Shown here: positions 727 to 56,442 of the stretch, piece by piece | How positions within the stretch are numbered: the stretch's first letter is position 1 | How the letters are laid out: every line of letters starts with the position of its first letter | Assembly (NCBI RefSeq): GCF_003473485.1 | Contig: NC_053046.1 | Coordinates: 1,002,001 to 1,066,000, forward strand | DNA from: Medicago truncatula | Lineage: Eukaryota; Streptophyta; Magnoliopsida; Fabales; Fabaceae | Reading direction: 5' to 3' | Length of the DNA: 64,000 nt | Notes under the pieces: generated by a model | Database searches by the model: none | Told to the model about the DNA's origin: nothing | Seen by the model: only the letters and a program-made list of their open reading frames with translations | Made by a program: the position numbers and the translations under genes

Positions 727-900
727 AAATTGATCGCTAACTCGTTATATCAAAAGACTAATTTGTCCGTAATAAATGCATGTTTATCTGTTATTGAAAC
801 AAAGATAATGAAACATTAACAAACAACAGAACACCATACTTATAGAAATGGTTTCAAATTTCAGACAGACACATATGTTTTTCTTTTGTTTGAACTAGAT

Positions 901-3417
901 ATGATTGTGTTGTCTCTTCCACCAATACCAATGGCTACTACTACTACAACCCTTCATCAATCTTCATCTCCTCTCTTACTTCCCACAACAACACAAAAGC
1001 CCAAAAATTCATCGCTTCAAACCTGCAAAACCCTCATTGAGCTCAAACAATTACACTGTAACATGTTAAAGAAAGGTGTTTTTAACATCAACAAGCTCAT
1101 TGCTGCTTGTGTCCAAATGGGTACCCATGAAAGCTTAAACTATGCTCTCAATGCTTTCAAGGAAGATGAAGGAACCAAGTGTTCACTTTATACTTGTAAT
1201 ACTCTGATTAGAGGGTATGCTGCATCTGGGTTATGTAAAGAAGCAATTTTTATTTACCTTCATATGATAATAGTGATGGGTATTGTTCCTGATAACTTCA
1301 CTTTCCCATTTTTGCTTAGTGCTTGTTCGAAGATTATGGCGTTTTCTGAGGGTGTTCAGGTTCATGGGGTGGTTGTTAAGATGGGTCTGGTGAAAGATTT
1401 GTTTGTTGCTAACTCTTTGATACATTTTTATGCGGCATGTGGGAAGGTTGATTTGGGACGAAAGGTGTTTGATGAAATGCTTGAGAGAAATGTTGTGTCG
1501 TGGACTAGTTTGATTAATGGGTATAGTGTGGTGAATATGGCTAAAGAGGCTGTCTGTTTGTTCTTTGAGATGGTTGAGGTGGGTGTTGAACCGAATCCTG
1601 TGACTATGGTTTGTGCTATATCTGCTTGTGCTAAGTTGAAGGATCTTGAATTGGGTAAAAAAGTGTGCAATTTGATGACGGAGTTGGGGGTGAAATCTAA
1701 TACGCTTGTGGTGAATGCACTGCTCGATATGTACATGAAATGTGGAGACATGTACGCTGTGAGGGAAATTTTTGATGAATTTAGTGATAAGAATTTGGTT
1801 ATGTACAATACTATCATGTCAAATTATGTGCAACATGGGTTGGCTGGTGAAGTGCTAGTTGTTTTGGATGAAATGCTGCAGAAAGGACAGCGGCCAGATA
1901 AGGTGACTATGCTATCTACTATTGCAGCATGTGCACAGTTAGGTGATCTTTCTGTTGGGAAGTCATCTCATGCTTATGTCTTCAGGAATGGACTAGAGAG
2001 GTTGGACAACATTTCTAATGCCATCATTGACATGTATATGAAATGTGGCAAAAGAGAAGCTGCTTGCAAAGTTTTTGACAGTATGTCAAACAAGACGGTG
2101 GTGACATGGAATTCGCTAATTGCAGGTTTGGTTAGAGACGGTGAGTTGGAATTAGCTTTGAGAATCTTTGGTGAGATGCCAGAGAGTAATCTTGTATCTT
2201 GGAACACAATGATTGGTGCCATGGTTCAAGCAAGCATGTTTGAGGAAGCAATTGATTTACTCAGGGAGATGCAAAACCAAGGGATTAAAGGAGATAGAGT
2301 GACAATGGTGGGTATTGCTTCTGCCTGTGGATATTTAGGAGCTCTTGATCTTGCTAAGTGGATCTATACTTACATTGAGAAAAATGACATTCACATTGAC
2401 ATGCAACTTGGCACAGCTTTGGTCGACATGTTTTCTAGATGTGGTGATCCTCTAAATGCTATGCGTGTTTTTGAAAATATGGAAAAACGCGACGTGTCTG
2501 CCTGGACTGCAGCCATCAGAGTTAAGGCAGTGGAGGGTAATGCAAAAGGAGCTATTGAGCTTTTTGATGAGATGCTGAAGCAAGATGTGAAAGCAGACGA
2601 TTTTGTTTTTGTGGCACTATTGACAGCATTTAGTCATGGTGGATATGTGGACCAGGGGAGACAACTTTTTTGGGCAATGGAGAAAATCCATGGAGTAAGT
2701 CCTCAGATTGTCCACTATGGATGTATGGTTGATTTGCTTGGTCGAGCTGGGTTGTTGGAAGAAGCTTTTGATCTCATGAAAAGCATGCCAATAAAACCGA
2801 ATGATGTTATATGGGGATCTTTTCTAGCAGCTTGTCGAAAACACAAAAATGTTGAATTTGCAAATTATGCAGATGAAAAGATAACTCAATTGGCCCCAGA
2901 AAAAGTTGGGATTCATGTGTTGCTATCCAATATCTATGCATCGGCTGGAAAATGGAATGATGTAGCAAGAGTGAGGTTGCAAATGAAAGAGAAAGGGTTC
3001 CAGAAAGTAGCTGGATCAAGCTCAATAGAAGTTCACGGATTGATTCGCGAGTTCACATCTGGTGACGAATCACACACAGAGAACGCCCAAATTGGATTAA
3101 TGCTACAGGAAATAAACTGTAGGATAAGCCAGGTGGGGTATGTTCCTGATACAACCAATGTCTTAGTTGATGTTGATGAGCAGGAGAAAGAGCATTTGCT
3201 CAGCAGACATAGCGAAAAACTAGCCATGGCTTATGGATTAATCAATACCGGTAAAGGAATACCTATACGGGTAGTAAAAAATCTAAGAATGTGTTCTGAT
3301 TGTCACTCATTTGCAAAATTAGTGTCAAAACTGTACGGTAGGGAAATAACTGTTAGGGATAATAACAGGTATCATTTTTTCAAGGAAGGATTTTGTTCTT
3401 GTAGAGATTTTTGGTAG
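901..3417 (+). CDS. YS1: DYW-class PPR RNA-editing factor, YS1 (At3g22690) orthologue
   Basis: A single-exon gene of 838 aa. Family knowledge: YS1 is a chloroplast PPR-DYW protein needed for editing of an rpoB transcript site and for early greening. What is seen: an N-terminal Ser/Thr-rich region that fits a plastid transit peptide, a long run of PLS-type PPR motifs (about residues 80-640), an E/E+ region, and a C-terminal DYW deaminase domain. The zinc/catalytic signature is intact: His770-Ser-Glu772 and Cys798-x-x-Cys801-His. The protein ends in DFW rather than DYW, as I recall for the Arabidopsis protein. Length agrees with the Arabidopsis protein (about 842 aa). The start at 901 is preferred because its MATTTTT-like stretch (second ATG at 931) aligns a little downstream of the start; 931 is the alternative. 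Neighbouring RDM1 genes on the opposite strand repeat the Arabidopsis gene order. Confidence 0.93.
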   Translation: MIVLSLPPIPMATTTTTLHQSSSPLLLPTTTQKPKNSSLQTCKTLIELKQLHCNMLKKGVFNINKLIAACVQMGTHESLNYALNAFKEDEGTKCSLYTCNTLIRGYAASGLCKEAIFIYLHMIIVMGIVPDNFTFPFLLSACSKIMAFSEGVQVHGVVVKMGLVKDLFVANSLIHFYAACGKVDLGRKVFDEMLERNVVSWTSLINGYSVVNMAKEAVCLFFEMVEVGVEPNPVTMVCAISACAKLKDLELGKKVCNLMTELGVKSNTLVVNALLDMYMKCGDMYAVREIFDEFSDKNLVMYNTIMSNYVQHGLAGEVLVVLDEMLQKGQRPDKVTMLSTIAACAQLGDLSVGKSSHAYVFRNGLERLDNISNAIIDMYMKCGKREAACKVFDSMSNKTVVTWNSLIAGLVRDGELELALRIFGEMPESNLVSWNTMIGAMVQASMFEEAIDLLREMQNQGIKGDRVTMVGIASACGYLGALDLAKWIYTYIEKNDIHIDMQLGTALVDMFSRCGDPLNAMRVFENMEKRDVSAWTAAIRVKAVEGNAKGAIELFDEMLKQDVKADDFVFVALLTAFSHGGYVDQGRQLFWAMEKIHGVSPQIVHYGCMVDLLGRAGLLEEAFDLMKSMPIKPNDVIWGSFLAACRKHKNVEFANYADEKITQLAPEKVGIHVLLSNIYASAGKWNDVARVRLQMKEKGFQKVAGSSSIEVHGLIREFTSGDESHTENAQIGLMLQEINCRISQVGYVPDTTNVLVDVDEQEKEHLLSRHSEKLAMAYGLINTGKGIPIRVVKNLRMCSDCHSFAKLVSKLYGREITVRDNNRYHFFKEGFCSCRDFW

Positions 3418-3802
3418 TAGAATTACATAAATGAAATTTTGACCTCTGGTTTACAAATAAACTCCACTCTTGTCAATTTAAGTTAAAAATGAACTGATCA
3501 TCCTGTGTTTATTTTTAAGCATGGCTCTCTTCATGGGGGAAAACCAAATAATTCATTGATTAATACACAGGAGACAGTGATCTCAGAAAGCAAAGGTAAC
3601 AGCTAAAAGTTTGTTTATTTAAACCATGTTAAGTATGGATTTTTTTTGTTCAACATTATCAGCAATTGCAGTGACGAAAATTCAAATCATGTTGTAATTT
3701 ATGCTTGGTCATAATCCAAAATTGTAACTCAGACCGACAAATACTAAGATGCAGCCATGTATTGAAAAGGAAAGATAGTCTAAAACAGAAAATAAGGAGG
3801 CT

Positions 3803-4143
3803 TCATGATTTGTGCTGCAATGTTGGAAAAATGGAATCAACAAACCCATTATTATACAATGGGTCCATCTTCCAGAGATTAGCAAGATGAAAATGCGATG
3901 ACGCTTGGCGATGGATTATGTTGTCTAAGCGCCTATACTCATCCTTGTCGCCAATTCTCATTTGGTCTCATTGCTTAAGGATAATATTTGTGAGGTAATG
4001 AAGAGGTTGTGTATATAATTTCTTAATTGATTTGCCTAATCCCATCCATAAGGTAGATGGAATGACCGAGCCTCGACTAGTCAGGATTGGGATCTGCTCC
4101 ATGTAATTCTGATACATTGCTGCCCGTCTGATGATGAGCACGT
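3803..4143 (-). pseudogene. RDM1: RDM1 pseudogene, exon 2 only (copy A)
   Basis: This matches exon 2 of the two intact RDM1 copies downstream (380 bp each), starting at a preserved 3' splice site (CAG before 4143) and ending at the same TGA. It is broken by a nonsense change that turns the Trp codon after LTNIILKQ into TGA (3968-3970). It also lacks 45 bp that encode the [11 protein letters not shown] stretch, a deletion bounded by a short GATG/GATGA repeat. Two 3-bp insertions keep the frame. No exon 1 is found upstream on the minus strand; the homology with copy B fades near 4300 and a POLD4 fragment follows. About 140 bp of 3' flank (from 3658) is also shared with copies B and C. Confidence 0.85.
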
Positions 4144-4490
4144 CTGCATATAAGCATGAGTCTGCATCACTTTCAAATGTGATTGGTCTGACAGTGGGAA
4201 AGTGTACCAATGTGCCTTAAAACAGAACTATAGACTCATTCATTTCAACACATAAAACTGTGAAGTGATTTTCATTCTGTAATTTTAATATACCCAAGGA
4301 ATTAAACAACAACCAAACAATTATGAAAAATTATGAACAATAATGCAAAAACGTCAAACGAAAAAGTAACAAGACCAGTAATATTTTTCTAATTAAGCAG
4401 CAAAATTCTGAGAAGAACATCAATAAAACAACCAGAAGCTGGAATTGTAAATTATACTCTTAATTAAACTATATTAAACCATATTAATAA

Positions 4491-4910
4491 TTAATTAAAA
4501 TCTTTTTTAATGAATGGTCCTCCTAAGCGATCGTGCCACAAACACTCTTCATCAACATTGCATTTTTTCAAAAATTTCCCAATCTCAGGTGGAGGGTTCA
4601 AATTCCACTTTAGTGCACGTTCATAACGTTCTAGTCTAGTCATACCAAAACATGGTCCATACTTTGTATCCATGTTGCCGCAACATCATCTCTTCCCTAT
4701 TGTATTCACGACCATCTGAAAATAATTAAATAAATAATAATACTGATCAAATTTTATAAGGTCAGCTAATAATCTTTGTAGTATAATCTTAGTTGACAAT
4801 ATCATTATTATGCAATAACAACTAGAGATGACATTTGTTACCTTGTATTTAGTGGTGACACTAGATTTCTTATTTGATTTGAATGGCTTATTCAAAGTTT
4901 TCTTTTTCAT
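4491..4910 (-). pseudogene. POLD4: POLD4 (DNA polymerase delta small subunit) pseudogene
   Basis: Two separated blocks resemble plant DNA polymerase delta subunit 4, the small subunit of the replicative polymerase. The first block (4910-4842) encodes a lysine-rich N-terminus beginning MKKKTLNKPFKSNKKS and ends at a GT donor. The second block (4715-4491) starts after a TTTCAG acceptor and encodes the family's signature YGPC-GMTRLERYERA-LNPPPEI. The middle exon of the family (the ALISHG region) is absent. Next to the signature, the normal LRQFDM sequence has lost about 5 bases, which shifts the frame. The N-terminal PIP-box aromatic pair is also missing. I judge it a degenerate copy and not the working gene. 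It sits where exon 1 of RDM1 copy A would be expected. Confidence 0.6.
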
Positions 4911-5623
4911 CTTGAAAAGTTTTTCATCTAATCTTTCTCCCAACAATTCTTCGACATGTTACTCTCAAATATTGTTTGGTCTTCTCAAATATATCTTTTC
5001 TCACAAGTTAGGTTTGGATATACTCTTTTTTTTTTTTTTAATCGCAAGTTAGTTTTGGCCAAAAAAACGCCCACTTCTTATTTAATCACAAACAATGTTT
5101 AGCATCTTTAAAATGTTTAGTTCAATTTTAACATAAAAAAAGTTTTCTTAAGAAAAAACCACCAAAAAAAGTTTTGCTCAATATCTATTATTTAATTTAA
5201 TTATGAAACTTCATTAAAAAAAAATCAATTATGAAACTTAACGACTATAAAAAAATACAATCTTACCTCATTATAATTATTTGACACGTCATCAAAATTA
5301 TATTCTTTCGTGTCTTTTATTTCAACCTGCCCTTGTTATTTTTCTCTTTAAAAGTTGTCAATTAAAACAAATTAAAATAAATTAGCCAATTAAAAGAAAC
5401 CCACTTACAAGCAAAACAACTTTTCCAAACAAAATTTCCCACAATAACTCATTTTTCCTGCTAAATATCTAGAGTAAAAATAAAATCTCCAATAAAAACT
5501 AATACTCTTTCTATTCACTAATTATGTAACTTAATTACAAGAAGAAAAAAAAACACAATTATGTCATATTCGGATTATTTGATTTTTTTTACTCTATTGT
5601 GTCTTTTTGAAACAGAAAAAAAA
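4911..5623. other. AT-rich spacer, no gene seen
   Basis: Low-complexity AT-rich DNA with homopolymer runs (for example the T run near 5028-5039). No coding or RNA signal was found on either strand. Confidence 0.4.
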
Positions 5624-5995
5624 GGTAAATACTTCTTTTCGTCTCTGTAATATTAGCGAATTCCGGTTTTAGTCCCTGTAAAAAAAAATTAGATTTAGTC
5701 CTTGTAATTTCATATTCTTCCACTTTTGGTCCCTCATTCCACCACGTAAGCAGAATCTGCATACATGACACGTAAAATGAGGGACCAAAAGTGGAGGAAT
5801 ATGAATTACAGGGACCAAAAGTGGGAGGAATCTGAAATTACAGGGACGTAATTTATACAGATTCTGTTGACATGATAAAAGGAGGGACCAAAAGTGGAAG
5901 AATCTGCAATTACAGGGACAAAATCTAAATCTTTTATTCTACAGGGACTAAAACCGAAATTCGCTATTATTACGGGGACAAAAAAGGTATTTACC
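5624..5995. repeat. Foldback MITE of the GGTAAATAC...GTATTTACC type
   Basis: An inverted-repeat element of about 372 bp. The left arm begins GGTAAATAC and carries GGTTTTAGTCCCTGTA and TTTTGGTCCCT. The right arm is its reverse complement, ending GTATTTACC. Internal sub-repeats of the phrase AGGGACCAAAAGTGGA recur three times. Flanks are A-rich on both sides, so the target duplication cannot be read. Short frames inside are products of the palindrome and are not genes. Confidence 0.8.
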
Positions 5996-6879
5996 CAAAA
6001 AAAAAACTTTTTAGAGGAGAGAGAAAACAACTTGTCAAAAATTGAGGTAATTTTGTTAAAAAAAAATCTCTTTCTTAGAGAAAAAATCTCTTTTATATAA
6101 TCGTATCTACACAAATTAAATTATTTTAAAAAATATTTTTTATTACGATAAACAAACACAAAATAGATTCTGATTTTTTATAAAATTATTAAAAAAAATA
6201 TTCAAATTATTGAATGTCAAAATCACTTGTATTTCAATACGTAATGAACAGGCCATATGAGACTGTTTGTTATAACTTAAGAAACAAAATCACTTTTTCT
6301 ACCTCTAAAAAAATTACTTTATTAAAAAAATACTTTAAGAGTATTGTATCCATTTGTTAGATTTTAAAAAAAAAAACATATTTTCTTAAGAGTATTGTAT
6401 CTGTTTTATATATATATATTTTTTAAATATATTCATTTGTTAGATTAAAAAAAAATAAAAATTCTTAAGAGTATTGTATCTGTTTGTTATATTTTTGTAA
6501 AATATATTTTTTGTAGAGGGGAGAGAAAATATGTATCAAAAGATGGAGATAAGTCTTGATGAGCTTAATTCAGTTGGTCGGGACAATGCAAAAATATATG
6601 CAAGATTCATGGTTCAAATTTTGGCCGCCACAAGAAATCACTTTTATATAATTGTACCCAAAAAAAGTAAATTTTTTTTTTTTTTAAGAAGTGGTTTTTG
6701 AAATAAACAAACATAAAATTGATTCTTCTTTTTTTTATAAAATCTCTTAAAATGTGTGTTGGTAATCATGTTTGATGTCATAAACACTTTTGAACCTACC
6801 ACATCAATGTTAAATGGTTCATAAGCATTTTTTTAACAACGTTGGTTGAAAAAAATGGATAACCATGTAAATATTAATA
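5996..6879. other. AT-rich spacer with a decayed SINE and a triple short repeat
   Basis: No gene is seen. The phrase TTAAGAGTATTGTATC occurs three times (about 6335, 6386 and 6463) with intervals of roughly 50-75 bp. Around 6559-6640 the sequence GAGCTTAATTCAGTTGGT followed by a damaged box B looks like an old SINE. Confidence 0.4.
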
Positions 6880-7300
6880 AAATCCTTGGATGAATGTTCC
6901 ATGTCCTCTAGTTAATCCTCCACAAGCCGATTGACCGTTGGCGTTCTTGGGAAATCCATCAATTTGAATTTATAAGAGGTTCCCATTTCACATGCAGAAT
7001 TTCTTCCAAATATCCTGAAGATGCAACCAATAGCAATCATTTGCACTTGACTTGATAGATAAGGAAGTCAATTATCTCAAAGTTGTGAATATTGATTGAA
7101 AAGTAGATCATCCTGATCCTTCCATAATGCATGAATAACGACACTAAAAAAAACTCTCAATTCCAAGGTGTATTTTTGAAGAATTTCACTGAAATTATTA
7201 GCAAGAGTTTGAGATGTATTTCTAGAAAAGAAAACTTCATATTTACTGAGGTTCACCTTCTGGCTAGACTGATAGCAAAAATCATTAAGTGGGAGCACCC
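6880..7300 (-). mobile_element. LINE-type reverse transcriptase / RNase H relic
   Basis: On the minus strand broken frames encode a QKVNLSKYEVFFSRN motif. This is the reverse transcriptase segment usually written SGQKVNLxKSEVFFS in plant L1-type elements. Further downstream an RNase H-like segment reads NGQSACGGLTRG. Frames are shifted and stops intervene, so this is a fossil. It lies against the duplicated YS1 tail at 7309. Confidence 0.6.
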
Positions 7301-7308
7301 AAATTGGA

Positions 7309-7460
7309 ATGATGCTACATGAAATAAACTACAGGCTAAGCCAGGTGGGGTATGTTCCTGACACAACCATTGTCTTACTTGATATTGATGAGCAGGAGAA
7401 AGTGCATTTAGTCAGCAGACATAGCGAAAAACTAGCCATGGCTCATGAATTAATCAAAAC
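7309..7460 (+). pseudogene. YS1: YS1 3'-end fragment (truncated DYW region)
   Basis: This repeats the part of the YS1 gene near 3101-3240. It encodes LSQVGYVPDTT...DEQEK...SRHSEKLAMA with a few substitutions, then breaks off before the CxxC zinc motif. What follows resembles the YS1 3' flank (about 3600 onward), so roughly 360 bp of the original are deleted here. Together with RDM1 copy B it shows that a block holding the YS1 tail and RDM1 was duplicated. Confidence 0.85.
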
Positions 7461-7679
7461 AGCATCAGCATTTACTAAAACCTTGTTTGTTTAAATCATG
7501 TTTTAAGTAATTTTTTTCAACAAAATTCACAACATGCTGTAATTTGAGGTAGGTCATACAAAATTTTCAATCCAGGATTGTAACTAAGACTGGAATATCA
7601 TTAGCAGTGTCTTGGGGACAAATACTGAGATGCAACCATGTATTTAAAAGGAAAATAGTCTAAAACAAAAAACGAGGCT

Positions 7680-9039
7680 TCATGATGTGGCCTGTAATGT
7701 TGGGAAAATGGAATCAAGAAAACCATTGTACATTGGGTCCTTCTTCCAGAGATTAGCAAGATGAAAATGCGATGACGCTTGGCGATGGACTTGTTCCATG
7801 AGCCAGATGGTGGCTTCAGCTTTGCAAGGATGAATTATGTCATCTAAGCGCCTATACTCATCCTCACTGCCAATTCTCATTTGATCCCATTGCTTAAGGA
7901 TAATATTTGTGAGGTAATGAAGAGGTTGTCCATATAGCTTCTTAATTGATTGTCCTAAGCCCATCCATGAGGTAAATGGAATGACTGAGCCTCGACTACT
8001 CGGGATTGGGATCTGCTCCATGTAATCCTGGTACATTGCTGCCCGTCTGATGAGTACATCTGCATATAAGCATGAGTCCGCATGACTTTCAAAAGTAATC
8101 GGTCTGACAGTACAAAAGTGCAACAATGTGCCATAAAACAGAACTATAGACTCATTTGAATACATAAAACTGTGAAGCGATTTTCATTCTGTAACTTTAA
8201 TATACCTAAATGCCAATATATGATATATCCTTAAAGAGCATATCATCTAGGGATGGCGAAAGTTAAAAGACTACTCAGACCAGGACCCATACTTGCACGG
8301 GAAGTAGCAATAATGCATACACGCACACACCCAGACCCATTACACACATTTGTTAACTATGGCATCCTATAATGCATTGATCAATTTATGTGACAAACTA
8401 GTTCAACATAATTGCTATTATATAAACAGCGATTTTTTTTATTTTTATCAAAAACATAAAATTAATTCAAGATAATCTAATTACTCATTATAAAACATTA
8501 CAAATTTAACCATGTAACTTCTTTAAAAATCAATTCACATATTTATTATAGAACATAACCATATTGTGTATGTATAGAAACAGTTGGGTACTATAGTATC
8601 CATACCATTACTTGCATACATAACCACCATATTTATTATCTATATCTGGACCCATACATATTTGATTCGTAAAATCTTCATCCATTGGGGGTAATTTTCA
8701 TGGGTACTAAGAGGGTTCGAGTCCCAATGCCATGCACTACCACATGATTTATTATTAGCATCAGAAAATGACTCGAGTGTTAATTCAACAAAAATGTCTA
8801 AATAGGAAAAGGACAAAATTGAAGGGCATGTATATTTTTTTTATAATGCGAGAGAATTCAAGGGAAATATATTACAAAAAGAAGATGCAAAACGGAATAC
8901 CTGAGGAGTTGATATCTATAGAGGGTATTGAGATTGGACTCTGAGTTGTTGGAAGATTGGGAATGGAACTTGCGAGAAGGCCATTGCTGGTGAAGTATGG
9001 CAAAGAAGAGTTCAGTGCTGGTGGAAATGACATCTTCAT
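7680..9039 (-). CDS. RDM1: RDM1 (RNA-directed DNA methylation 1), copy B
   Basis: A two-exon gene, 172 aa. Exon 1 is 9039-8901 and exon 2 is 8059-7680, separated by an 841-bp GT-AG intron in phase 1. Family knowledge: RDM1 is a small nuclear protein that joins DRD1 and DMS3 in the DDR complex and helps RNA polymerase V recruit DNA methylation. The core is well conserved: [20 protein letters not shown], the PFTSWMGLG segment, [11 protein letters not shown], and a C-terminal DPMY-GF-DSIFP block. The Arabidopsis protein is 163 aa. The N-terminal exon is Ser/Pro/Asn-rich and shows almost no resemblance to that of copy C, lacking its acidic serine tract. A second in-frame ATG lies two codons downstream (9033). 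A YS1 fragment lies 3' of it. Nothing in the sequence disables it. Confidence 0.82.
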
Positions 9040-9082
9040 TGCAATAGAAGAACACTCTTTTCTTCCTGCTCAACAGAAACAT

Positions 9083-10176
9083 GCATAATTAAGATTAACT
9101 CATATTATAAAAAAAAAAACCTACAAGGGTAAAACTGAACACAAAAAGCATAGATTCAGAAACAGTGCAGTTTGTGTGTTTTCAAATAAAATGATAAATT
9201 GATGGAGTAAACAAGAATTTAGAGCTCAGCTCCACCGATGTCCACAGTCCACACTAAAAAAGCCTCGCTCACAGTAAGAGGAATCTATGCCTTCGACTTA
9301 ACCATTTCGATGACCACTCTACTATTCTTCTAACTTCAAACACATCATTGGTCACTATGTATATACATAGAAAATGCGGAATTTCATAGAATACTTTTAA
9401 AATTAAGAAAATTATTGTTTTGTAATATTATCTTTGTTTATAAATAAATTATTTGCATGGGACACGCTAATTTCTAGACATATATTAAAACCACTTGTGT
9501 AGATTATACAGTATTACCTAAAATTAAATCTTAATTAAGTTGGTTGGGCAAGACACTTAAAAAAGAAAAATTGCAGTTAGAGCAAACATTTTATTACAGT
9601 TAAACTCTATCAATAGGCCTTTGACAATAAAGTCTCATACCACATGTTAGATTAGTTGGGAGTAATACCAAAAAAATAACCTTAGTTTGATTGGTTTCTC
9701 CTCGATTTCAAAACACAATTGCATTTGAGATTTTCATCAGAAGAGCACCAGCAGGCAAAATCAAAGAGGATTTCTTGAAATGTGAGTGACGGAAGTAATA
9801 ATGATAGCAAGCACTAAAGAATAATCTTTCAAAAAGGACACAAGGCAAAAAAATTAATTCGAAGTATTGTTTGGGAAAGTGTTGAAGATGAATCTTTCCA
9901 AAATAACACTTCAACGGGAGATTTTGGATCAGAAGTATTTTTTTTTTCTGTATTGGTTTTCAAATGCTACCAAATATCGGCTACATAATATTGACATGGC
10001 AAGATAGGATCTCCAATATCAATATACCCTCAATGAGTTACAAGCTGATAGGCATGTAATACCGGCCATTTGGAAATATACTGTATTAAGCACTCCAATG
10101 AGTTTTGCATATAAAAATGTTGTTATCTTAATAAATAATGAACTCGTATGCAAATTAATAAATACACAATTAGAAC
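9083..10176. other. Spacer upstream of RDM1 copy B, no gene seen
   Basis: This includes the presumed promoter of copy B (just above 9039). I find no conserved coding frame, only short unsupported frames such as one near 9708-9914. Confidence 0.4.
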
Positions 10177-10663
10177 CTAGCCAATCTTTTTACCTTTAAC
10201 TCCCTCAAGATGAGTGATAGAACGAATTTCTGATTCCCCCGGGGATACATGATGGTTTTCACCGATAGTATGTCCGCCTGATACCAAAGTTCGTCCAAAT
10301 AATCTTGCAGTAGATATGTTACGATTGATAAATGAAGTTTCTTGCTCCTTAGAATAATATGACAGAGGTGTGGACATTGAATGTGTACTTGTCTCAACAT
10401 ACATGGCTGGTCCAGATAAATGATTCCCTGTGGCATGGGAATCATTGAATGAAAATAGCAAGAAATATAACCAAATGGAAGAACTTCAGTGGTTATAACT
10501 CAGATTAATAGTAATATTTAACAATACCATCATTAGTGTGACGAGGCATATTTTCACCTTCAGTAGAGATCTTGGATCTGCTAGGACGTTTTTGATTTAA
10601 AATCAATCTTCTTTTTGAACGCGCTTCTAGTGAACATTTTTTCAAATATTGTTGTTCATCCAT
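10177..10663 (-). CDS. Unrecognised two-exon reading frame, 128 aa
   Basis: I do not recognise a family with confidence. Exon a (10663-10528, 136 bp) starts MDEQQYLKKCSLEARSKRR, is rich in Lys/Arg, and ends at a GTATTG donor. Exon b (10427-10177, 251 bp) begins after a CCACAG acceptor, and the phases join in frame to a stop. The product is basic at the start, then Ser/Thr/His-rich, with no membrane segment. The style (basic head followed by an ISTEGENMP-like linker) recalls the N-terminal part of plant Helitron/PIF1-like helicases, but no helicase motif is present. It may be a captured or truncated transposon gene. No homology search was possible. Confidence 0.35.
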
Positions 10664-27354: not shown

Positions 27355-28835
27355 GGCAAAAATGCACTTTTCCTCCCCTAACTTTTAAAAAGTTACAATT
27401 TTGGCCCCCTGTGTACAAAACCTACAATTTTAACCCCCTAAGAATTAGTCCCTTTGCATATTTGGTCCTTTTCCCCAATTTTGACCAATCAATGCCTACG
27501 TGACATGCCACATGTGTAATTATTGAATTAAAAAATTAAAAAATCATATAATCATTTTTTAAATTAAATAAATTAAAAACTAAATTAAAAAAAAAACTAG
27601 AAAGAAAATTAAAATCTCAATCTTTTATTTCCTCTTCATCTCAATCTCAAGAAAAATAAAAAAGCAACAATTTTGACAAAACCCATCTAACAAAACACAA
27701 ATTCATCAAAACTCATTTCAAGAATCACCTTAAATTGCTCAATTTCAATGTTTTTATCATCATAACTGAAAAGGGTAGGAGCAGGTCTTTGAGAAATATG
27801 TCTGTGGCTGGGCTGGTTCGGCTGAGACTGTTGCTGTTAGCAGCTGCTAGCTGCGTGTGCAGCTGTTTCTGTTTGGTTGAACTCTGCCCCTTCACAGGTT
27901 TTCTCTTTGTCTGATCCATTTTCACGCATATGTTCGTTCAGTGGTCTGCACTTTGTGGTGAGTCGACGTGGACGATATTGCGCAACATTGCAACAACGTC
28001 GCTTTAGAAGGAAGAGCGGTAGCTTTTCAGAGAGAGATACTTAAAATTTGTAGCATATCCAATGGCTAAAAATGAATTGACTATGTGAATGTGTGATTTT
28101 TATGACTATAGGGAATCCACTCTAAGCTCCACTTCACTTTCACTTCCTCTGTTCTGTTACTTCTCGTAAACAAATGATTCTCTCTTTAGTACACAGAACC
28201 AAAACCAAAACCTCAATCTCCAACGTTCTATCAACAACATTGTTGTTAGATTCAACACATCAACATGGCCCCTTCAACATCATCACCGCCACCCAGTTTC
28301 ATTCTCTCCATCACAGACAACAACCAAACCAACACCAAGGACAGCAAATGCGGCGGGTGCCTTATGGTAGCTCTTTGTCATTGTCTCATATGTTTCATTC
28401 TTCTTCTAATTATTCTTTCAATCGTTATTATTGTCAAATTCCACTTTTTTTGTCACACCCCTCTTCATTCCTTGTTCTACAAAAAAAAAATGTTGAATCC
28501 CTATTTGGGTTGGGTGGAAGTTTCTATGGATTATCCTTTTCTAGTTTTCAAGGAAAGTTTATGTTTTTAGATAATTATAGACCATTTTGTAGCTGCGTGA
28601 GAAATATTTTTTATGATTTTTTAATTTAAAAAATGATTATATGTTTTTTTATTTTATTTTTAATTCAATAATTACACACGTGACATGCTACGTAGGCATT
28701 GACCGATCAAAATTGGGGAAAATGACCAACTATGCAAAGGAGCTAATTCTTAGGAGTCAAAATTGTAGTTTTTGTACATAGAAGACCAAAATTACAATTT
28801 TTTAAAAATTAGGGGGAAAAAAATACACTTTAACC
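27355..28835. mobile_element. Foldback MULE-like element 4, possible Pack-MULE cargo
   Basis: A 1481-bp element. The left end reads GGCAAAAATGCACTTTTCC and the right end is its diverged complement ...AAATACACTTTAACC. The flanks are CAAAATAAA (27346-27354) and TAAAATAAA (28836-28844), a 9-bp duplication with one mismatch. Arms of about 250 bp share GACATGCCACATGTG-like sequence. The centre contains two unrelated frames that look like captured gene pieces. One is basic and on the minus strand (27725-27925). The other is on the plus strand (28265-28570), with a cysteine pair and a hydrophobic segment that would span a membrane. The right end lies 56 bp before the PPR start codon. Confidence 0.8.
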
Positions 28836-28890
28836 TAAAATAAAATCAGTTTTAGGTTTAGACCACAAATCAAACCTTCGTAGCCTCGAA

Positions 28891-30552
28891 ATGCTGTCCA
28901 AGTACCGAATTCTCCACCACCTCACCCGCCACCTCTCTCCACGAATCACCACCACTCGCAGTTCCAATGTCTCGCCGCATTTCTTCATCAACCCTTTCTG
29001 CACTGTGGTAGTTAACTCACCTGAATCACCTGAACTTCCACCATGGGTCATGTTCTCCGATAAACCAACCCCTTCAAACTCCGACGACGATTTCGTTATC
29101 CCTTCTCTCGCTCATTGGGTTGATTCCAGCATCCTTCAAACCAAACCCAAACTCTTTGCAAAACCATCTTTGGAGGAAAGCATTCACCTTGAAGATGTTG
29201 AAAAAATCAGCACTTTTCTTAAGGAACAACGTCATTCTTCTCATGACCATGTTGTTCAAGCACTCGATGGTAGTGGTTTTCGGGTTTCCAACAGTTTGGT
29301 TATGCAGGTTTTGAAGAGATTCGGAAATGATTGGGTTGCGGCATATGGTTTTTTCATTTGGGCGAAAAAACAAACACCTTATGTGCATTCTCCTGAAGTG
29401 TACAATTTGATGGTTGATATATTGGGAAAAGCTAAGGAATTTGATCTCATGTGGAAATTGGTCAAGGAAATGAAAAGAATTGAAGGGTATGTGTGTTTGG
29501 ATACAATGAGTAAGGTAATGAGGAGGTTTGCAAAGGCTCAGAGACATGAAGATGCTGTTGAAGCGTTTCGCGGAATGGGTAAGTATGGTGTCGAAAAGGA
29601 TACGGCTGCATTGAATAAGCTCTTGGATGCTTTGGTGAAAGGACAAAGTATTGAAATTGCTCATAATGTTCTTGATGAGTTTAAGAGTTCTGTTCCATTG
29701 AGTTCTCCGTCTTTCAATATTTTGATAAATGGGTGGTGCAAAGTTAGAAACTTTGAGAAAGCGCGGAAAGTGATGGAGGAGAGGAAGGAACATGGATTTG
29801 AGCCGGATGTTTTTACGTATAATAATTTCATTGAATCTTATTGTCATGATAAGGATTTTCGCAAAGTTGATGAAGTTTTGGAGGAAATGAGGGGAAATGG
29901 TTGTCCTCCAAATGCTGTGACTTATACTATTCTGTTGCTTGGTTACGGGAAGGCGGGGCAATTGAGCAAAGCTTTGGAGGAATATGAAAGAATGAAGAAG
30001 GATGGAATTGTGCCCGACACTCCATTTTATAGCTCATTGATGTACATTCTTGGCAAAGCTGGTAGGTTAAAGGATGCTTGTGAGGTTTTTGATGATATGC
30101 CTAAGCAAGGGGTTGTGAGAGATGTGGTGACATATAATACTATGATTAGTACCGCTTGTGCACACTCAAAGGAAGAAACTGCACTTAGGTTGCTTAAGGA
30201 AATGGAAGAAACATCGTGCAAACCGGATCTTCAGACTTACCATCCTTTACTCAAGATGTGCTGCAAAAAGAAGAGGATGAAGGTGCTCAAGTTTTTGCTG
30301 GATCACATGTTCAAACATGACCTATGCCCTGATCGGGGAACTTATACGCTTCTGGTGCAGAGTTTGTCTAATAGCGGAAAACTTGTGGAGGCTTGCACAT
30401 TCTTTGAGGAGATGGTCTCGAAGGGATTTACTCCAATGGAGACCACAGTCAAGCTATTGACGCGAAAGCTTGAGATTAAGAGCATGTTAAAGGAGAAAGA
30501 CCAGATTGAGGAATTGATGGCGGGACATGTTCTGGGGGAACAAAATGTTTAG
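28891..30552 (+). CDS. P-class PPR protein, At3g22670-type, probably mitochondrial
   Basis: A single-exon gene, 553 aa. The start at 28891 gives an Arg/Ser/Thr-rich, acid-poor N-terminus typical of a mitochondrial presequence. Residues about 170-525 form around ten tandem P-type PPR motifs, for example SFNILINGWCKVRNFEKARKV, TYTILLLGYGKAGQLSKALEE and TYNTMISTACAHSKEETALRLL. No E or DYW domain is present, so a role in organelle RNA stability, splicing or translation is more likely than editing (family inference). Length matches the Arabidopsis protein (about 560 aa). Its place beside YS1 and RDM1 repeats the Arabidopsis order. A foldback transposon ends just 56 bp upstream, so the promoter is probably partly transposon-derived. 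Broken pieces of this gene lie on both sides (26165 and 32528). Confidence 0.9.
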   Translation: MLSKYRILHHLTRHLSPRITTTRSSNVSPHFFINPFCTVVVNSPESPELPPWVMFSDKPTPSNSDDDFVIPSLAHWVDSSILQTKPKLFAKPSLEESIHLEDVEKISTFLKEQRHSSHDHVVQALDGSGFRVSNSLVMQVLKRFGNDWVAAYGFFIWAKKQTPYVHSPEVYNLMVDILGKAKEFDLMWKLVKEMKRIEGYVCLDTMSKVMRRFAKAQRHEDAVEAFRGMGKYGVEKDTAALNKLLDALVKGQSIEIAHNVLDEFKSSVPLSSPSFNILINGWCKVRNFEKARKVMEERKEHGFEPDVFTYNNFIESYCHDKDFRKVDEVLEEMRGNGCPPNAVTYTILLLGYGKAGQLSKALEEYERMKKDGIVPDTPFYSSLMYILGKAGRLKDACEVFDDMPKQGVVRDVVTYNTMISTACAHSKEETALRLLKEMEETSCKPDLQTYHPLLKMCCKKKRMKVLKFLLDHMFKHDLCPDRGTYTLLVQSLSNSGKLVEACTFFEEMVSKGFTPMETTVKLLTRKLEIKSMLKEKDQIEELMAGHVLGEQNV

Positions 30553-44335: not shown

Positions 44336-46056
<1,721 letters not shown>

Positions 46057-46974: not shown

Positions 46975-47044
46975 TTTACAAGGGAGAATTGTTGTTCCCA
47001 CGTGTGATAAGGCTGTGCCACACTAATAAAATACGATTTTACCC

Positions 47045-47125
47045 CCTCGGCAGTTAACTGCCGAGGAATTTGAATTTCGGCTGCAGTTAATTACCGAGGA
47101 AATCCTCGATAGTTAACTGCCGAGG
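47045..47125. repeat. Palindrome array at the left MULE end
   Basis: A perfect 22-bp palindrome (arms CCTCGGCAGTT, centre GTTAAC) lies at 47045-47066. A near copy lies at 47104-47125 and a weaker one between them. The same 22-bp palindrome stands at 51669-51690 in the right end. Such repeated hairpins near both ends may be transposase binding or regulatory sites. Confidence 0.85.
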
Positions 47126-47322
47126 AAATGTTTCATCAGATGAAACAGCCACCTGCTCCCCCTACACACTATTTTCTTCATCAACTTCATTTCCACCTCC
47201 ATTCAATCCCAAAATCCAATTTTTCTTTAATCAATTCTTGATCCAAAATCATTCAAGCATCAAGCATAGGAGGTATCAACACACTTTTGACGTAAAAAAA
47301 CAGGTATTGTGCATTTTATTCG

Positions 47323-47923
47323 ATAATGTATCAAAATATTTCTTGGAAGCATCTTGCTCTTGGTCAAGTCACGTACAATATTCTTGTCGTCCTCCTTTAA
47401 TCTACCGGCAAGAATGTGTCCTTCTAAAGCCGGCTCCATGGCATGGTTGTGAACTCCATTAAGAATGTTCAATCCCCATTCCTTTGTTTGCTTACTTTGA
47501 TATCCACTAATCATGAACAAGCACCCACATTTTCTTGAGCCCGTTCTCGCATGCTTCGGTTTTTTTTTCCGGCACTTTGTGAGTTCCACTCCTTTCACAC
47601 ACTAGCCGGAACATTGGATTGATCAAGCTTGATCTTTGTGTGACAATTGTAAATCCCGCCTTATTTGCTTGATGACGCACCCACTCAAGCAATTCATCTC
47701 TATCTTTCGATTTAACGTCGTCTGAAAAAAACCTAGCCGTGTCGACCTCGTGGGCTTGAAGTGGGAGGACACCGGAGCCGCCAACATACTTTGAAGCTTC
47801 AACATGGACGGAAACTCCATCAATGTTTGGTTTCGCTTCAACCTTAGGCGGTTTGACATCTCCGGAATTTTCGACAAAATTTTGTTTTGTCTCTTCCGGA
47901 ACATCTTTTGCGTTCTCTACCAT
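47323..47923 (-). pseudogene. MULE transposase N-terminal part, FAR1-like zinc domain, inverted
   Basis: From ATG at 47923 on the minus strand the frame reads MVENAKDVPEETKQNF, then an ARFFSDDVKSKDRDELLEWV region, FRLVCERSGTHKVP and, after a one-base slip at a run of nine A (about 47560-47568), TGSRKCGCLFMISGYQ...WGLNILNGVHNHAMEP and AGRLKEDDKNIVRDLTKSKM. This is the Cys/His FAR1-type DNA-binding region that normally precedes a MULE catalytic core. The homologous frame continues on the opposite strand at 48297, and about 78 bp around that junction are present in both orientations. After ILIH the minus-strand copy loses homology. Confidence 0.85.
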
Positions 47924-48080
47924 TACTATAATTAAACAACACATAAATATGAATTAACAACTAACTAATGTATAAACATCAATGCCATAATGAATTAAAA
48001 CAAAAAAAACAAAAGAAATTTTTTTTTGAAAATCTGGCAGTAGCTGCCATTTTTTCGTTGTGAAAATTTTTCACCAAGAG

Positions 48081-48296
48081 TTCCTCGGTATCTTACTACC
48101 GAGGTTTTCCTTAGCACTACACTACCGAAGTTACAAAAGTGTGTTGATACCCATAAAATAGGCAAAAAATATTTTGATACGTGACTTGACCAAGAGTTCC
48201 TCGGTATCTTACTACCGAGGTTTTCCTCGACACTACACTACTGAAGTTACAAAAGTGTGTTGATACCCATAAAATAGGCAAAAAATATTTAGATTA
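48081..48296. repeat. Tandem 116-bp repeat with palindromes, at the inversion junction
   Basis: Two copies with a 116-bp period start TTCCTCGGTATC at 48081 and 48197. Each carries an imperfect palindrome (CCTCGGTA...TACCGAGG) and the phrase AAAAGTGTGTTGATACCC. They sit between the inverted 5' half and the plus-strand core of the transposase gene. The phrase GTATCAACACACTTTT also occurs at 47271 on the other strand, at the far end of the inverted block. Confidence 0.8.
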
Positions 48297-50735
48297 AAGG
48301 AGGACGACAAGAATATTGTACGTGACTTGACCAAGAGCAAGATGCTTCCAAGAAATATTTTGATACATTTGAAGAACAAAAGACCACATTGCATGACAAA
48401 TGTGACACAAGTGTACAATGAACGTCAACAAATATGGAAGGAAAATAGAGGTGACAAGAAGCCGTTGCAATATCTAATCTCGAAGTTGGAGGAGCACAAC
48501 TATACTTATTACTCAAGAACACAAAGTGAAAGTACTACAATCGAAGATATCTTTTGGGCTCATCTAACATCCATTAAGTTGTTTAACAATTTTCCAACGG
48601 TTTTGGTTACGGACTCAACCTACAAAATCAACATGTATAGGATGCCAATGTTTGAGGTAGTTGGGGTCACTTCGACCGATTTGACATATTCGGTTGGGTT
48701 TGGATTTATGACACATGAGAAAGAGGAAAACTTTGTTTGGGTTTTAAAAATGTTGCATAAACTTCTTTCGTCAAAGATGAATATGCCTAAGGTGATTGTT
48801 ACCGATAGGGATATGTCTTTGATGAAAGCGGTTGCAAATGTTTTTCCCGAAAGTTATGCAATGAATAGTTACTTTCATGTGCAAGCAAATGTTAAACAAA
48901 GATGTGTCTTAGATTGTAAATATCCTTTGGGTTTTAAAAAGGATGGGAAAGAGGTGAGCAATCGCGATGTTGTCAAGAAGATAATGTAGGCATGAAAAGC
49001 TATGGTTGAATCACCCACTCAAAAGTTATATGCAAATGCATTAGTGGAGTTCAAAGATTCCTGTAGTGATTTCCCAATTTTCAAAAATTATGCCATGACC
49101 ACCTTGAATGAAGTGAAGGACAAAATTGTGAGGGCATGGATAGACCATGTGTTGCATCTTGGTTGCAGGACCACGAACAGGGTCGAATCGGCTCATACTT
49201 TATTGAAGACATACTTGGATAATAGTGTGGGTGATTTGGGTACTTGTTGGGAGAAAATACATGACAGGTTGTTGCTTCAATTCACTGCTATACAAACATC
49301 CTTTGGTCACAGCGTTAGTGTGTTGGAACATAGATTCAAAGATGTCACTTTATACTCGGGGTTAGGTGGTCATGTGTTTAGATATGCTTTGGACAGCATT
49401 GCTTTGGAAGAGACACGTTGTAGGAAAACATTGTGCATGGACAATGACATTTGTGGTTGTGTTCAAAGGACATCTTACGGGCTACCATGTGCATGCGAAA
49501 TTGCTACTAAGCTCCTTGAAGAGAAGCCAATTTTATTGGATGAGATATACCACCATTGGCTTAGGTTACGTATGGGCGAAGAAAGTAACGAAGTTGCTTT
49601 TTGTGTCGAGGTTGAGTTGAAGGCTATTGTAGAATGTCTAAAGAAACTCCCTTTCCAAATGAAGCTTGAGGTGAAAGAGGGTTTGTGGCAGTTGGCATTT
49701 CCTGAAACCACCTTGTTGTCTCCACCACCACGAAAAGTACCAACCAAGGGAGCAAAGAAAAAAGTCGACATTGCGAGGTCTAAAGGAAAAATTACATCGA
49801 CTAGTCGGATCCCTTCTTCGTGGGAGGTTGTTGATTCCCAAAATCCGGATAGCCAACCATCACCATCACCATCACCAACAACATCATCGTATAAAAGGAA
49901 AAAAGGTGCTCGTCTTGGTAAAACATCACTTTCCCCACTTCTACCACCTACTCGGTATCCAAAGCCTAAGGATATCCCGATTATGAGTCCTATTGATTAT
50001 ATGCCACGCTTCATGCTTCCATTTATTGAAAAAGTGGTGGATGTTATCGGCGATGGACATTGTGGATTCCGGGCTATAGCCGAGTTCATGGGCTTGACCG
50101 AAAAAAATCATCTCATGATCTGTACACATCTTATTCAAGAGTTGATAGATCATAGAGATGATTATGTTGAAGTATTTGCGGGTGAGGATCGTTATAACTA
50201 CATTTTAAACGGCTTACATCCTCCCGCAAATACAAAAACTTGTGCACATCTTGTTGATAAGTGGTTGACTTTTCCGGACATGGGGCACATTGTTGCTAAT
50301 TATTACAAAATGTGTGTGGTCGTGTTGACAAATCTTGAAGTTGGAAACTCAAAATCTTTTTTCCCACTAAGAGGGCCACCACCGCCGGGTAATAAAAAAA
50401 CTCCCATCTTGTGCCTTGGGGAAATTCCGAATCATTTCGTGCTTATTTATTTGAAGAATGGTTGTCCACTACCTCCATCATCTACGGAGTGGCACAATCA
50501 CAAGAAAGAAGATGCGGTGACTTGGGAAGATGAGTATTTGGATCAACATGAGTTGTTCCGAAAGCTCATGGCTATTGAAAGTGGAAACAAACCGCCGAAA
50601 CCACAAAAGGAGTCAAACAAAGCGGCGCCTATTTTGTTGGACACTCCCGAAAAACCAAAGCAACAATTTGAAGTTATTGCGGAAGATGAGGAAGATTCTA
50701 TGTCATTTGATCTTCTCCAATCACTTGGTCTTTAA
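48297..50735 (+). pseudogene. MULE transposase core fused to an OTU cysteine protease domain
   Basis: The first part (to 48989) holds the MULE DDE domain: FPTVLVTDSTYKIN (first Asp), VGVTSTDLTYSVGFGFM, and MPKVIVTDRDMSL (second Asp). Two in-frame stops follow close together (TAG 48987-48989 and TGA 48993-48995, the latter in place of a Trp). The same frame then goes on for 577 codons from 49002: HLGCRTTNRVESAH, a SWIM-like CGCVQRTSYGLPCAC cluster, a Pro/Ser/Lys linker, and an OTU domain with DGHCGFRAI (Cys at codon 354 from 49002) and NHFVLIYL (His at codon 478). OTU enzymes cut ubiquitin chains; in MULEs the role is unknown. The long C-terminal open frame suggests recent decay or selection on this half. 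Confidence 0.88.
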
Positions 50736-51025
50736 TGAGTGATTTTTTGTCGGTGTTAGTCCTTTTTTTTGGTAGAAATTACACCGATGTATATTTTGGG
50801 GTCGAAATTGTAACGCCAATTTTTTGTGGCCAATATATAACTAACATTATGTAATTTATATATATATATATATATATATGATAATATGACTTTTATGTGG
50901 TGAAACTAATGCAATACTTATTTATAGCTTATTAATGTTTATGCATTTGATTTATTCGTTATTACATTCCATTTAATTTTGTTCTAATATATAATTCTTT
51001 TCTTAAAGCTTTTTTCAAGTGAGAC

Positions 51026-51382
51026 ATGTCTGAGGTTGCACAAATTGAAGGGTGCGTTAGATACTCCGCGTTTAAAAAGACGGTTAAAGTTATGATAACG
51101 CCGACAGACTCTCTTGACGATTTGAAGGCACGATTTAACACTTATTTTGAGCATCTTGGTAAAAATTAATATACACGTCACTTGTTTGGTCAAATGCCAT
51201 GCATAGACCTAGGAGAAGATAGAGATGAATACGCATGGAAAACGGCAAGCTATATGCCTTTGCTTATTCGCGACGACGGCGACATCGGATTTATGTTTGG
51301 AATATGGTGGAAAATAATATGTTATATATGTATGTTCGTACCATATGCAGTTGCGTTGAATGTAAGTAGGGATTTAATTTAA
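51026..51382 (+). pseudogene. Second small MULE reading frame, one internal stop
   Basis: Downstream of the transposase, in the same orientation, a frame starts MSEVAQIEGCVRYSAFKKTV and reads ...SLDDLKARFNTYFEHLGKN. It meets TAA near 51167 and continues in the same frame as TRHLFGQMPCIDLGEDRDEY...YMPLLIRDDGDIGFMFGIWW to a final stop at 51382. About 118 codons in all. I do not recognise a domain. It lies inside the element boundaries, so it is likely a MULE accessory gene, comparable in position to mudrB of maize but not visibly related. Confidence 0.55.
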
Positions 51383-51760
51383 TGATATGTAATGAGTTGT
51401 TAAATTATTGACACTTAATTATAGACACTTTGTAATGTTTTGATGAATTTCAAACGTTTGTTTAATTTTAACCAAATGTCGGTTTAATTTAATTATGGAC
51501 AATTGTAAAAGATATTGTATTTATCGTGTTTATGTCCGAGTTTCAATCTTGTATGAATTATTTTGCCTTTGAAAATGCTCTGGTTTAATTACAGGTAAAA
51601 ACTGACCCAAAAAATGGCTTGGAAATATTTAGGATTATGCAGAACTCACTGTCTGCATAATCAGTTTTCCTCGGCAGTTAACTGCCGAGGGGGTAAAAGA
51701 GTAAAATACTCGTGTGGCACAACTTTATGTAAAGTGTAAACATCAATTCTCTTTACAAGG

Positions 51761-54749: not shown

Positions 54750-56442
<1,693 letters not shown>

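Follow-up and report, generated by a model that had tools for sequence, protein, structure and literature searches.

How did the front of a transposase gene come to lie backwards inside a Mutator-like element (MULE) that keeps both of its ends? The question is raised by a 4,768-bp element in a 64,000-nucleotide stretch of the Medicago truncatula genome (NC_053046.1, positions 1,002,001 to 1,066,000; hereafter the window), in which the FAR1-like N-terminal part of the transposase is encoded on the minus strand, and the catalytic core and a C-terminal OTU-like domain on the plus strand. The structure is real and derived; as far as examined, it is private to this one copy, and known repair processes account for it. 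Most probably, the front of the gene was recopied in reverse by template switching during DNA repair or replication inside the element, and this happened in this copy alone as far as our comparisons reach.

An earlier reading of the window (below, the sequence-only reading) had claimed exact element boundaries with a 9-bp duplication. We found the same duplication at both borders of an element with 85-nt terminal inverted repeats (TIRs), and the coordinates proposed earlier were correct to within a few bases. The parts that matter for the argument are the following.

46984..51751: MULE, 4,768 bp, flanked on both sides by TTTACAAGG.
46975..46983: left target site duplication (TSD) TTTACAAGG, a perfect 9-bp match to the right copy.
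51752..51760: right TSD TTTACAAGG, a perfect 9-bp match to the left copy.
46984..47068, plus strand: left TIR, 85 nt, 81% identical to the right TIR.
51667..51751, minus strand: right TIR, 85 nt, 81% identical to the left TIR.
47130..47324, plus strand: exon of the 5' untranslated region (UTR) followed by the beginning of a predicted 5' intron (GT at 47304; splice sites predicted from sequence), in the original orientation, 92-98% identical to the fetched relatives, ending at breakpoint J0 (47324/47325).
47325..48123, minus strand: reversed segment with an 80-nt arm, the FAR1-like N-terminal part and the rest of the predicted intron, antisense to five collinear relatives.
48290..48986, plus strand: MULE transposase core (PF10551, E 1.2e-23).

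The tips read GAGAATTGTTGT on the left and, as reverse complement, GAGAATTGATGT on the right. A 9-bp TSD, long TIRs and a MULE-type DDE domain on the plus strand, whose Pfam profile match is above the cut-off, are thus all present, and the element is a defunct member of a multicopy Mutator-like family, which belongs to a known superfamily. Among 10 other copies of the family that were displayed and compared by eye, the 9-bp TSD was perfect in four (L010, L012, L016 and L025) and had one mismatch in three (L015, L021 and L024).

The rearrangement itself consists of an inverted duplication and a tandem repeat.

47325..47404, minus strand: left arm of an identical 80-nt inverted duplication, exon sequence reversed.
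48290..48369, plus strand: right arm of the duplication, original orientation.
48070..48178, plus strand: tandem unit U1, a mosaic of intron, UTR and exon pieces, 94% identical to U2.
48186..48294, plus strand: tandem unit U2, with 4 inner differences from U1, all transitions.

The stretch present in opposite orientation at two sites, put at about 78 bp by the sequence-only reading, is in fact 80 nt long with 0 differences. The arms are 100% complementary and 885 nt apart, and RLKEDDKNIVRDLTKSKM is encoded by the stretch read from either site, in the same phase in both reading frames. Beside the reversed block lies a 116-nt tandem repeat (period 116) at 48073-48294. Read against the relative L010, numbered from the UTR fragment used in the comparison, positions 1-194 run forward and are followed by 1090 to 288, 159-142 and 220-197, all backward; then come 1070-1087 and 1040-1058 forward, intron, UTR and intron pieces backward again, and finally 1011 onward forward. 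Such an order of pieces needs four strand changes and several slips. The end of the first tandem unit holds exact exon pieces of 14 and 19 nt, and most of intron positions 195-287 (L010 numbering) are lost at the junction. Counted by eye, the bases common to both sides at the seven joins number 0, 0 (with one added nucleotide), 6, 4, 3, 8 and 1. In a simulation, the chance of at least 3 shared nucleotides at four of seven joins was about 0.0005, and that of a sum of at least 22 was about 0.004.

In order to see what the undisturbed gene looks like, we turned to the rest of the family in the same genome (430 Mb in 42 contigs; all comparisons are within one assembly). The left 341 nt of the element gave 40 scored near-full-length sites, window included, these being the best 40 of 1,361 candidates. 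A 40-nt piece of the 80-nt stretch has 134 genome sites at no more than 3 mismatches (0 for the reversed-pattern control), and at the same threshold we counted 146 sites for the border of the 80-nt stretch with the FAR1 part, 127 for the OTU part and 167 for the 5' UTR; about 100 places per pattern are among the matches listed. The family has more than 100 sites in the Medicago truncatula genome. One query each against prokaryote and viral contigs confirmed no relatives there. Internal deletion derivatives also occur (L013, L015, L020, L021 and L026).

From this family, we fetched the 20 other copies whose left ends are most similar to that of the window element. Seventeen of these loci hold the FAR1 part and the 80-nt stretch, as 18 elements (two in L021), and in 18/18 elements holding both halves the UTR, the FAR1 part, one copy of the 80-nt stretch and the core follow each other on one strand; the nearest are 97-98% identical to the window over FAR1 and core. 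The remaining three loci (L009, L015 and L020) are without the 80 nt and uninformative for order. A 240-nt query from L010 that spans FAR1, the 80-nt stretch and core matched full length, or within two bases of it, at 40/40 scored sites (the best 40 of 243 candidates, L010's own site included and the window not among them). In these two comparisons, the check that had been proposed returned collinear copies throughout; relatives with the two halves as separate genes on opposite strands, which would have spoken against the reading, did not turn up in them. At a wider scale, 68 of 99 UTR sites (among the matches listed, out of 167) have an 80-nt or border site within 2 kb, and 66 of the 68 are collinear; the window and a palindrome, L034, are the exceptions. 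The other 31 of the 99 have no such neighbour among the matches listed.

The junctions, by contrast, are found in the window alone. With an 80-nt query centred on 47324/47325, only the window spans the join, and the other 39 of the best 40 sites (of 251 candidates) stop exactly at it. A 27-nt pattern over the UTR-intron join in the tandem unit has 2 genome sites at no more than 3 mismatches, both in the window. Among the matches listed, the two window arms are the only exact matches to the 40-nt piece of the 80-nt stretch, and both arms have the base change AAT for AAG, which occurs in none of the 98 others listed (of 134 sites). The shared AAT means that one arm served as the template for the other, or that a single element was the source of both.

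These findings fit a sequence of events that would start from one collinear frame encoding a FAR1-like DNA-binding part, a MULE catalytic core and an OTU-like protease. From the left flank, copying would have crossed to the opposite strand where the 80-nt exon stretch has its far end, run back through the FAR1 part and the intron, and slipped over short distances at the intron and UTR. Two more fold-backs would then have created the tandem unit before copying finally rejoined the intact right side, at the nearer end of the 80-nt stretch. All this may have been one single event of gap or break-induced repair, with the same element or its sister as the template.

The sequence-only reading had instead suggested an inversion with duplicated breakpoints. 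The 5' part is indeed reversed and the breakpoint duplicated, but the explanation is too simple for the tandem and mosaic pieces with microhomology at their joins. These pieces argue for template switching rather than a clean inversion, as a break or stalled fork followed by template switching yields all of them at once, whereas a clean inversion yields the large block only. A two-break inversion with one break staggered by 80 nt and filled in, to which the tandem unit would be unrelated and either earlier or later, is consistent with there being one reversed block and with the perfect 80-nt match of the inverted arms. However, it leaves the 14- and 19-nt exon pieces, the intron-UTR-intron shuffle and the loss of most of intron positions 195-287 unexplained, and we consider it unlikely. 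The mosaic is equally unexplained if an 80-nt reverse copy had first entered the 5' intron and recombination between the two copies had then flipped what lay between them. Although turning round 47405-48289 between the arms would restore the collinear order, the intermediate was seen in no relative, 18/18 elements in the fetched loci having a single 80-nt copy, and this route is very unlikely. We also set aside the idea that the 80-nt arms act as an invertible switch, because the gene is broken elsewhere and no two-arm copy in the other order was seen among the 18 elements.

Chimeric or fold-back reads are able to produce inverted repeats. However, the four differences between U1 and U2, all transitions, are not expected of copies made by an assembler or within a read, and several small mosaic joins with four strand switches would be unusual for an assembly error; the probability of an assembly or read artefact is accordingly slight. 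The probability that the family natively has two genes on opposite strands is close to nil: the informative relatives are collinear, which rules out such a gene pair within the Medicago truncatula genome, and both frames cross the 80 nt in the same phase.

Several observations weigh against template switching. Two of the seven joins are without microhomology, the 8 nt at join J5 hold against this copy's own intron and are fewer against some relatives, and the joins were chosen by the analyst after the structure had been seen. Between the tandem units there are 4 transitions in 102 nt, between the arms 0 differences in 80, and the order of events is not proven. Compared with the base most frequent in 16 relatives, the minority base represents a C:G to T:A change at each of the four U1/U2 difference sites. 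Three of these minority bases are also present in single relatives (L019; L014 and L019; L011), so not all the differences need be later mutations, and the units may have had different templates or arisen in two steps. At the fourth site, the minority base occurs in 0/16 relatives. Assuming 0.65-1.3e-8 changes per site per year, we obtain a rough age of 0.8-1.7 million years for arms and tandem units pooled, and an upper bound of 1.4-2.9 million years for the arms by themselves. The event would thus be roughly a million years old.

The sequence-only reading described the transposon as otherwise complete. This did not hold up, as the gene has been damaged in several other places.

47921-47923, minus strand: complement of the ATG of the FAR1-like part, which has a frameshift near 47559-47570.
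48987..48995, plus strand: two in-frame stops, TAG 48987-48989 and TGA 48993-48995, which interrupt 48297-50735.
48996..50735, plus strand: remainder of the transposase and C-terminal OTU-like domain (weak match to PF02338).
51026..51382, plus strand: broken copy of a second small gene, interrupted by an internal stop (last base 51169) and, farther on, by a change of frame.

The FAR1-like part is divided between two frames at a poly-A run near 47559-47570, a tract that is variable across 16 aligned relatives. The TAG stop is found in 0/13 relatives and the TGA stop in one of 13, L016. A full-length transposase frame is present in 0/21 loci scanned (the 20 fetched and L033), the longest frame being 849 aa. 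Since its 5' part is reversed and it contains the frameshift and two stops, the window copy is non-autonomous: it cannot make a working transposase and, with both ends kept, could at most be mobilised by others.

That the N-terminal part lies on the minus strand, as proposed earlier, was borne out with respect to the strand, but its match to the FAR1 profile PF03101 is partial and below the cut-off of 28.1 bits (16.6 bits, E 0.014 in the window; 24.3 bits in the relative L017). The AFT profile PF08731, with a cut-off of 21.6, scores 31.3 in L017 and 20.5, just below the cut-off, in the window. In L017, a single 618-aa frame spans the FAR1 region (AFT above and FAR1 below cut-off) and the MULE domain, and in L010 a single 849-aa frame spans the MULE domain and the OTU-like end. 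Together, these two frames show that the FAR1, MULE and OTU-like pieces were once one gene; the collinear relatives bear out the same claim of the sequence-only reading. We take D 48612-48614, D 48804-48806 and E 49185-49187 to be the catalytic residues of the core.

The plus-strand frame 48297-50735 contains the MULE core as claimed, but the OTU label for its end is only weakly matched and the frame has the two stops inside it. The PF02338 (OTU) score is 12.8 bits (E 0.18) in the window and 17.4 bits (E 0.0064) in L010, the cut-off being 23.3. The best match among solved structures is OTUD3 (4bou), with E 0.0057 for L010 and 0.06 for the window, over the DGxC motif. We take the putative catalytic Cys codon to be 50061-50063 and the His codon 50433-50435. 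Both residues are kept in the window and in most relatives shown; the Cys is absent in L025. A PF02338 profile search of the whole genome gave 8 matches with E of 0.1 or less, which neither strengthen nor weaken the OTU assignment. Judging from these sequence comparisons, the C-terminal domain is probably an OTU-like cysteine protease.

The second small gene is better preserved in other copies. Its 114-aa frame is open in seven of the 10 relatives translated, the start not being located in the other three. In L024 (3932-4273) and its relatives, it is open downstream of the transposase although no transposase frame there is full length. We found no Pfam family for it.

Ubiquitin- and SUMO-type proteases are found in other DNA transposons: Ulp1 in Mutator elements, OTU in Ginger1 and Helitrons, Ginger1 transposons carrying either OTU or Ulp1 domains (PMC2836005). 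Like Ulp1-bearing MULEs and Ginger1, the window family has a DDE transposase and a C-terminal cysteine protease of this type on one protein, but unlike them it pairs an OTU-like protease with a MULE-type transposase and a FAR1-like front (PMC2836005). An OTU-bearing MULE therefore bears on the protease role in transposition or its repair suggested there (PMC2836005). In the open-licence literature, we found no description of such an element in titles and abstract openings among the matches listed. Proteins of this kind may well occur in legume genome annotations.

MuTAnT, a MULE family of the same species, likewise has 9-nt duplications and fold-back ends (PMC4486113). It differs from the window family in its TIR (GGGG...), its TA-repeat targets and its five-exon mudrA-like gene (PMC4486113), and the terms OTU and FAR1 are absent from the main text of that paper. 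As for the rearrangement, microhomology at the joins, several template jumps and breakpoints inside the element are also seen when gaps in TIR transposons are filled with template switching (PMC8277862). There, in the cases set out in that source, the filler is captured host sequence, whereas in the window it is the element itself reversed (PMC8277862). The window copy alone is one mutated relic that records a complex template-switch event base by base. Microhomology-mediated break-induced replication is also said to leave microhomology at the joins and to involve several template jumps, as in the window copy.

Is the window copy the only member of its family that has been turned upon itself? 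Among 122 distinct sites (those among the matches listed), we looked for opposite-strand pairs within 15 kb and found them in five places: the window, L021, L033, L034 and C8 at 17.38 Mb. The pair in L021 (C3) turned out to be two separate elements and was rejected as a fold-back. New here are three large fold-back derivatives of the family.

L033, 1962-6266 (G000:C4): two inverted left halves of about 2 kb each, 92% alike.
L034, 1434-3635 (G000:C6): left half folded back inside the 80-nt stretch; halves of about 1 kb, 91% alike.
P8 (L036+L035+L037), 3069-10201 of the joined stretch (G000:C8): 7.1-kb palindrome of two right halves, 99.5% alike.

Each half of L033 starts on the left side and extends across UTR and FAR1 as far as the core, and the borders of L033 have no common duplication of at least 6 nt. 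At the turn of L034, 4 nt are shared; one tip is lost, with L010 position 130 as the end point of the right side. A 12-nt match, ATAATCAATAAT, stands directly outside the left tip and again about 150 nt past the right edge. Aligned over about 3.5 kb, the halves of P8 show 9 substitutions and 2 gap columns; the palindrome is enclosed by a perfect 9-bp duplication, TTGCCCTTT. Left and right ends of these copies were judged by the genes adjoining each end. The P8 tips are nearest the right TIR of L024 (89%; 18 TIRs compared); for the tips of L033, the TIR letters do not decide between left and right (best 85% versus 83% and 85% versus 84%), and the L034 tips are likewise undecided.

The likeness that comes to mind is Mu killer of maize. 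Silencing loci of this kind are known mainly from that one case. L033, with two left ends (by their adjoining genes) flanking inverted transposase halves, has the architecture of Mu killer, in which two partial copies of the transposase gene of a MULE, each derived from the left (transposase) side, are inverted relative to each other (PMC3440606); the likeness, drawn here from DNA sequence, concerns architecture. L034 resembles Mu killer but is without one tip, P8 differs from it in being made of right halves, and the window copy differs in having one left and one right end and a perfect arm of merely 80 nt, all relative to the locus as outlined in that source (PMC3440606). When the plus strand of window positions 47200-48500 was folded in silico, 79 of the 80 arm positions were paired, so an RNA read from the left end, if there is one, would be predicted to contain a perfect duplex of 80 bp.

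On the L010 element, the turning points lie at 1236/1157 for the window, 1215/1181 for L034, 1120/1082 for P8 and 2172/2260 for L033. Three of the four (window, L034 and P8) thus fall inside 155 nt (1082-1236) of 4,735, near the end of the FAR1 part. With four cases only, a hot spot is a lead and no result. Of 20 L010 windows whose DNA folding was examined for a structural cause, the one with the 80-nt stretch has a z of -3.07; as another, in the OTU part, reaches -3.19, we make no claim for such a cause. By analogy with Mu killer, a fold-back hot spot near the FAR1 end could repeatedly yield inverted copies (window, L034 and P8, with L033 turning elsewhere), some of which would transcribe hairpins that silence the whole family; we hold this to be a doubtful proposal. 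If it were true, the transposon's own repair accidents would supply the trigger of its silencing. The set of fold-back copies is a more interesting lead than the window copy: the window and the three fold-backs suggest a natural series of datable copies through which the emergence of Mu killer-like silencing loci could be followed.

The window also contains several ordinary genes. The RDM1 gene, which belongs to RNA-directed DNA methylation, is at 7683-8183 (PF09187, E 4.7e-64). This pathway silences transposons; the presence of RDM1 in the same window as the element is probably a coincidence. The element lies between two similar pieces of Oxidored_FMN flavin oxidoreductase genes, 45436-46056 and 55804-56442, which we presume to be OPR-like. 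Furthermore, there are pentatricopeptide repeat genes at 820-3417, with a DYW deaminase end, and at 28834-30552.

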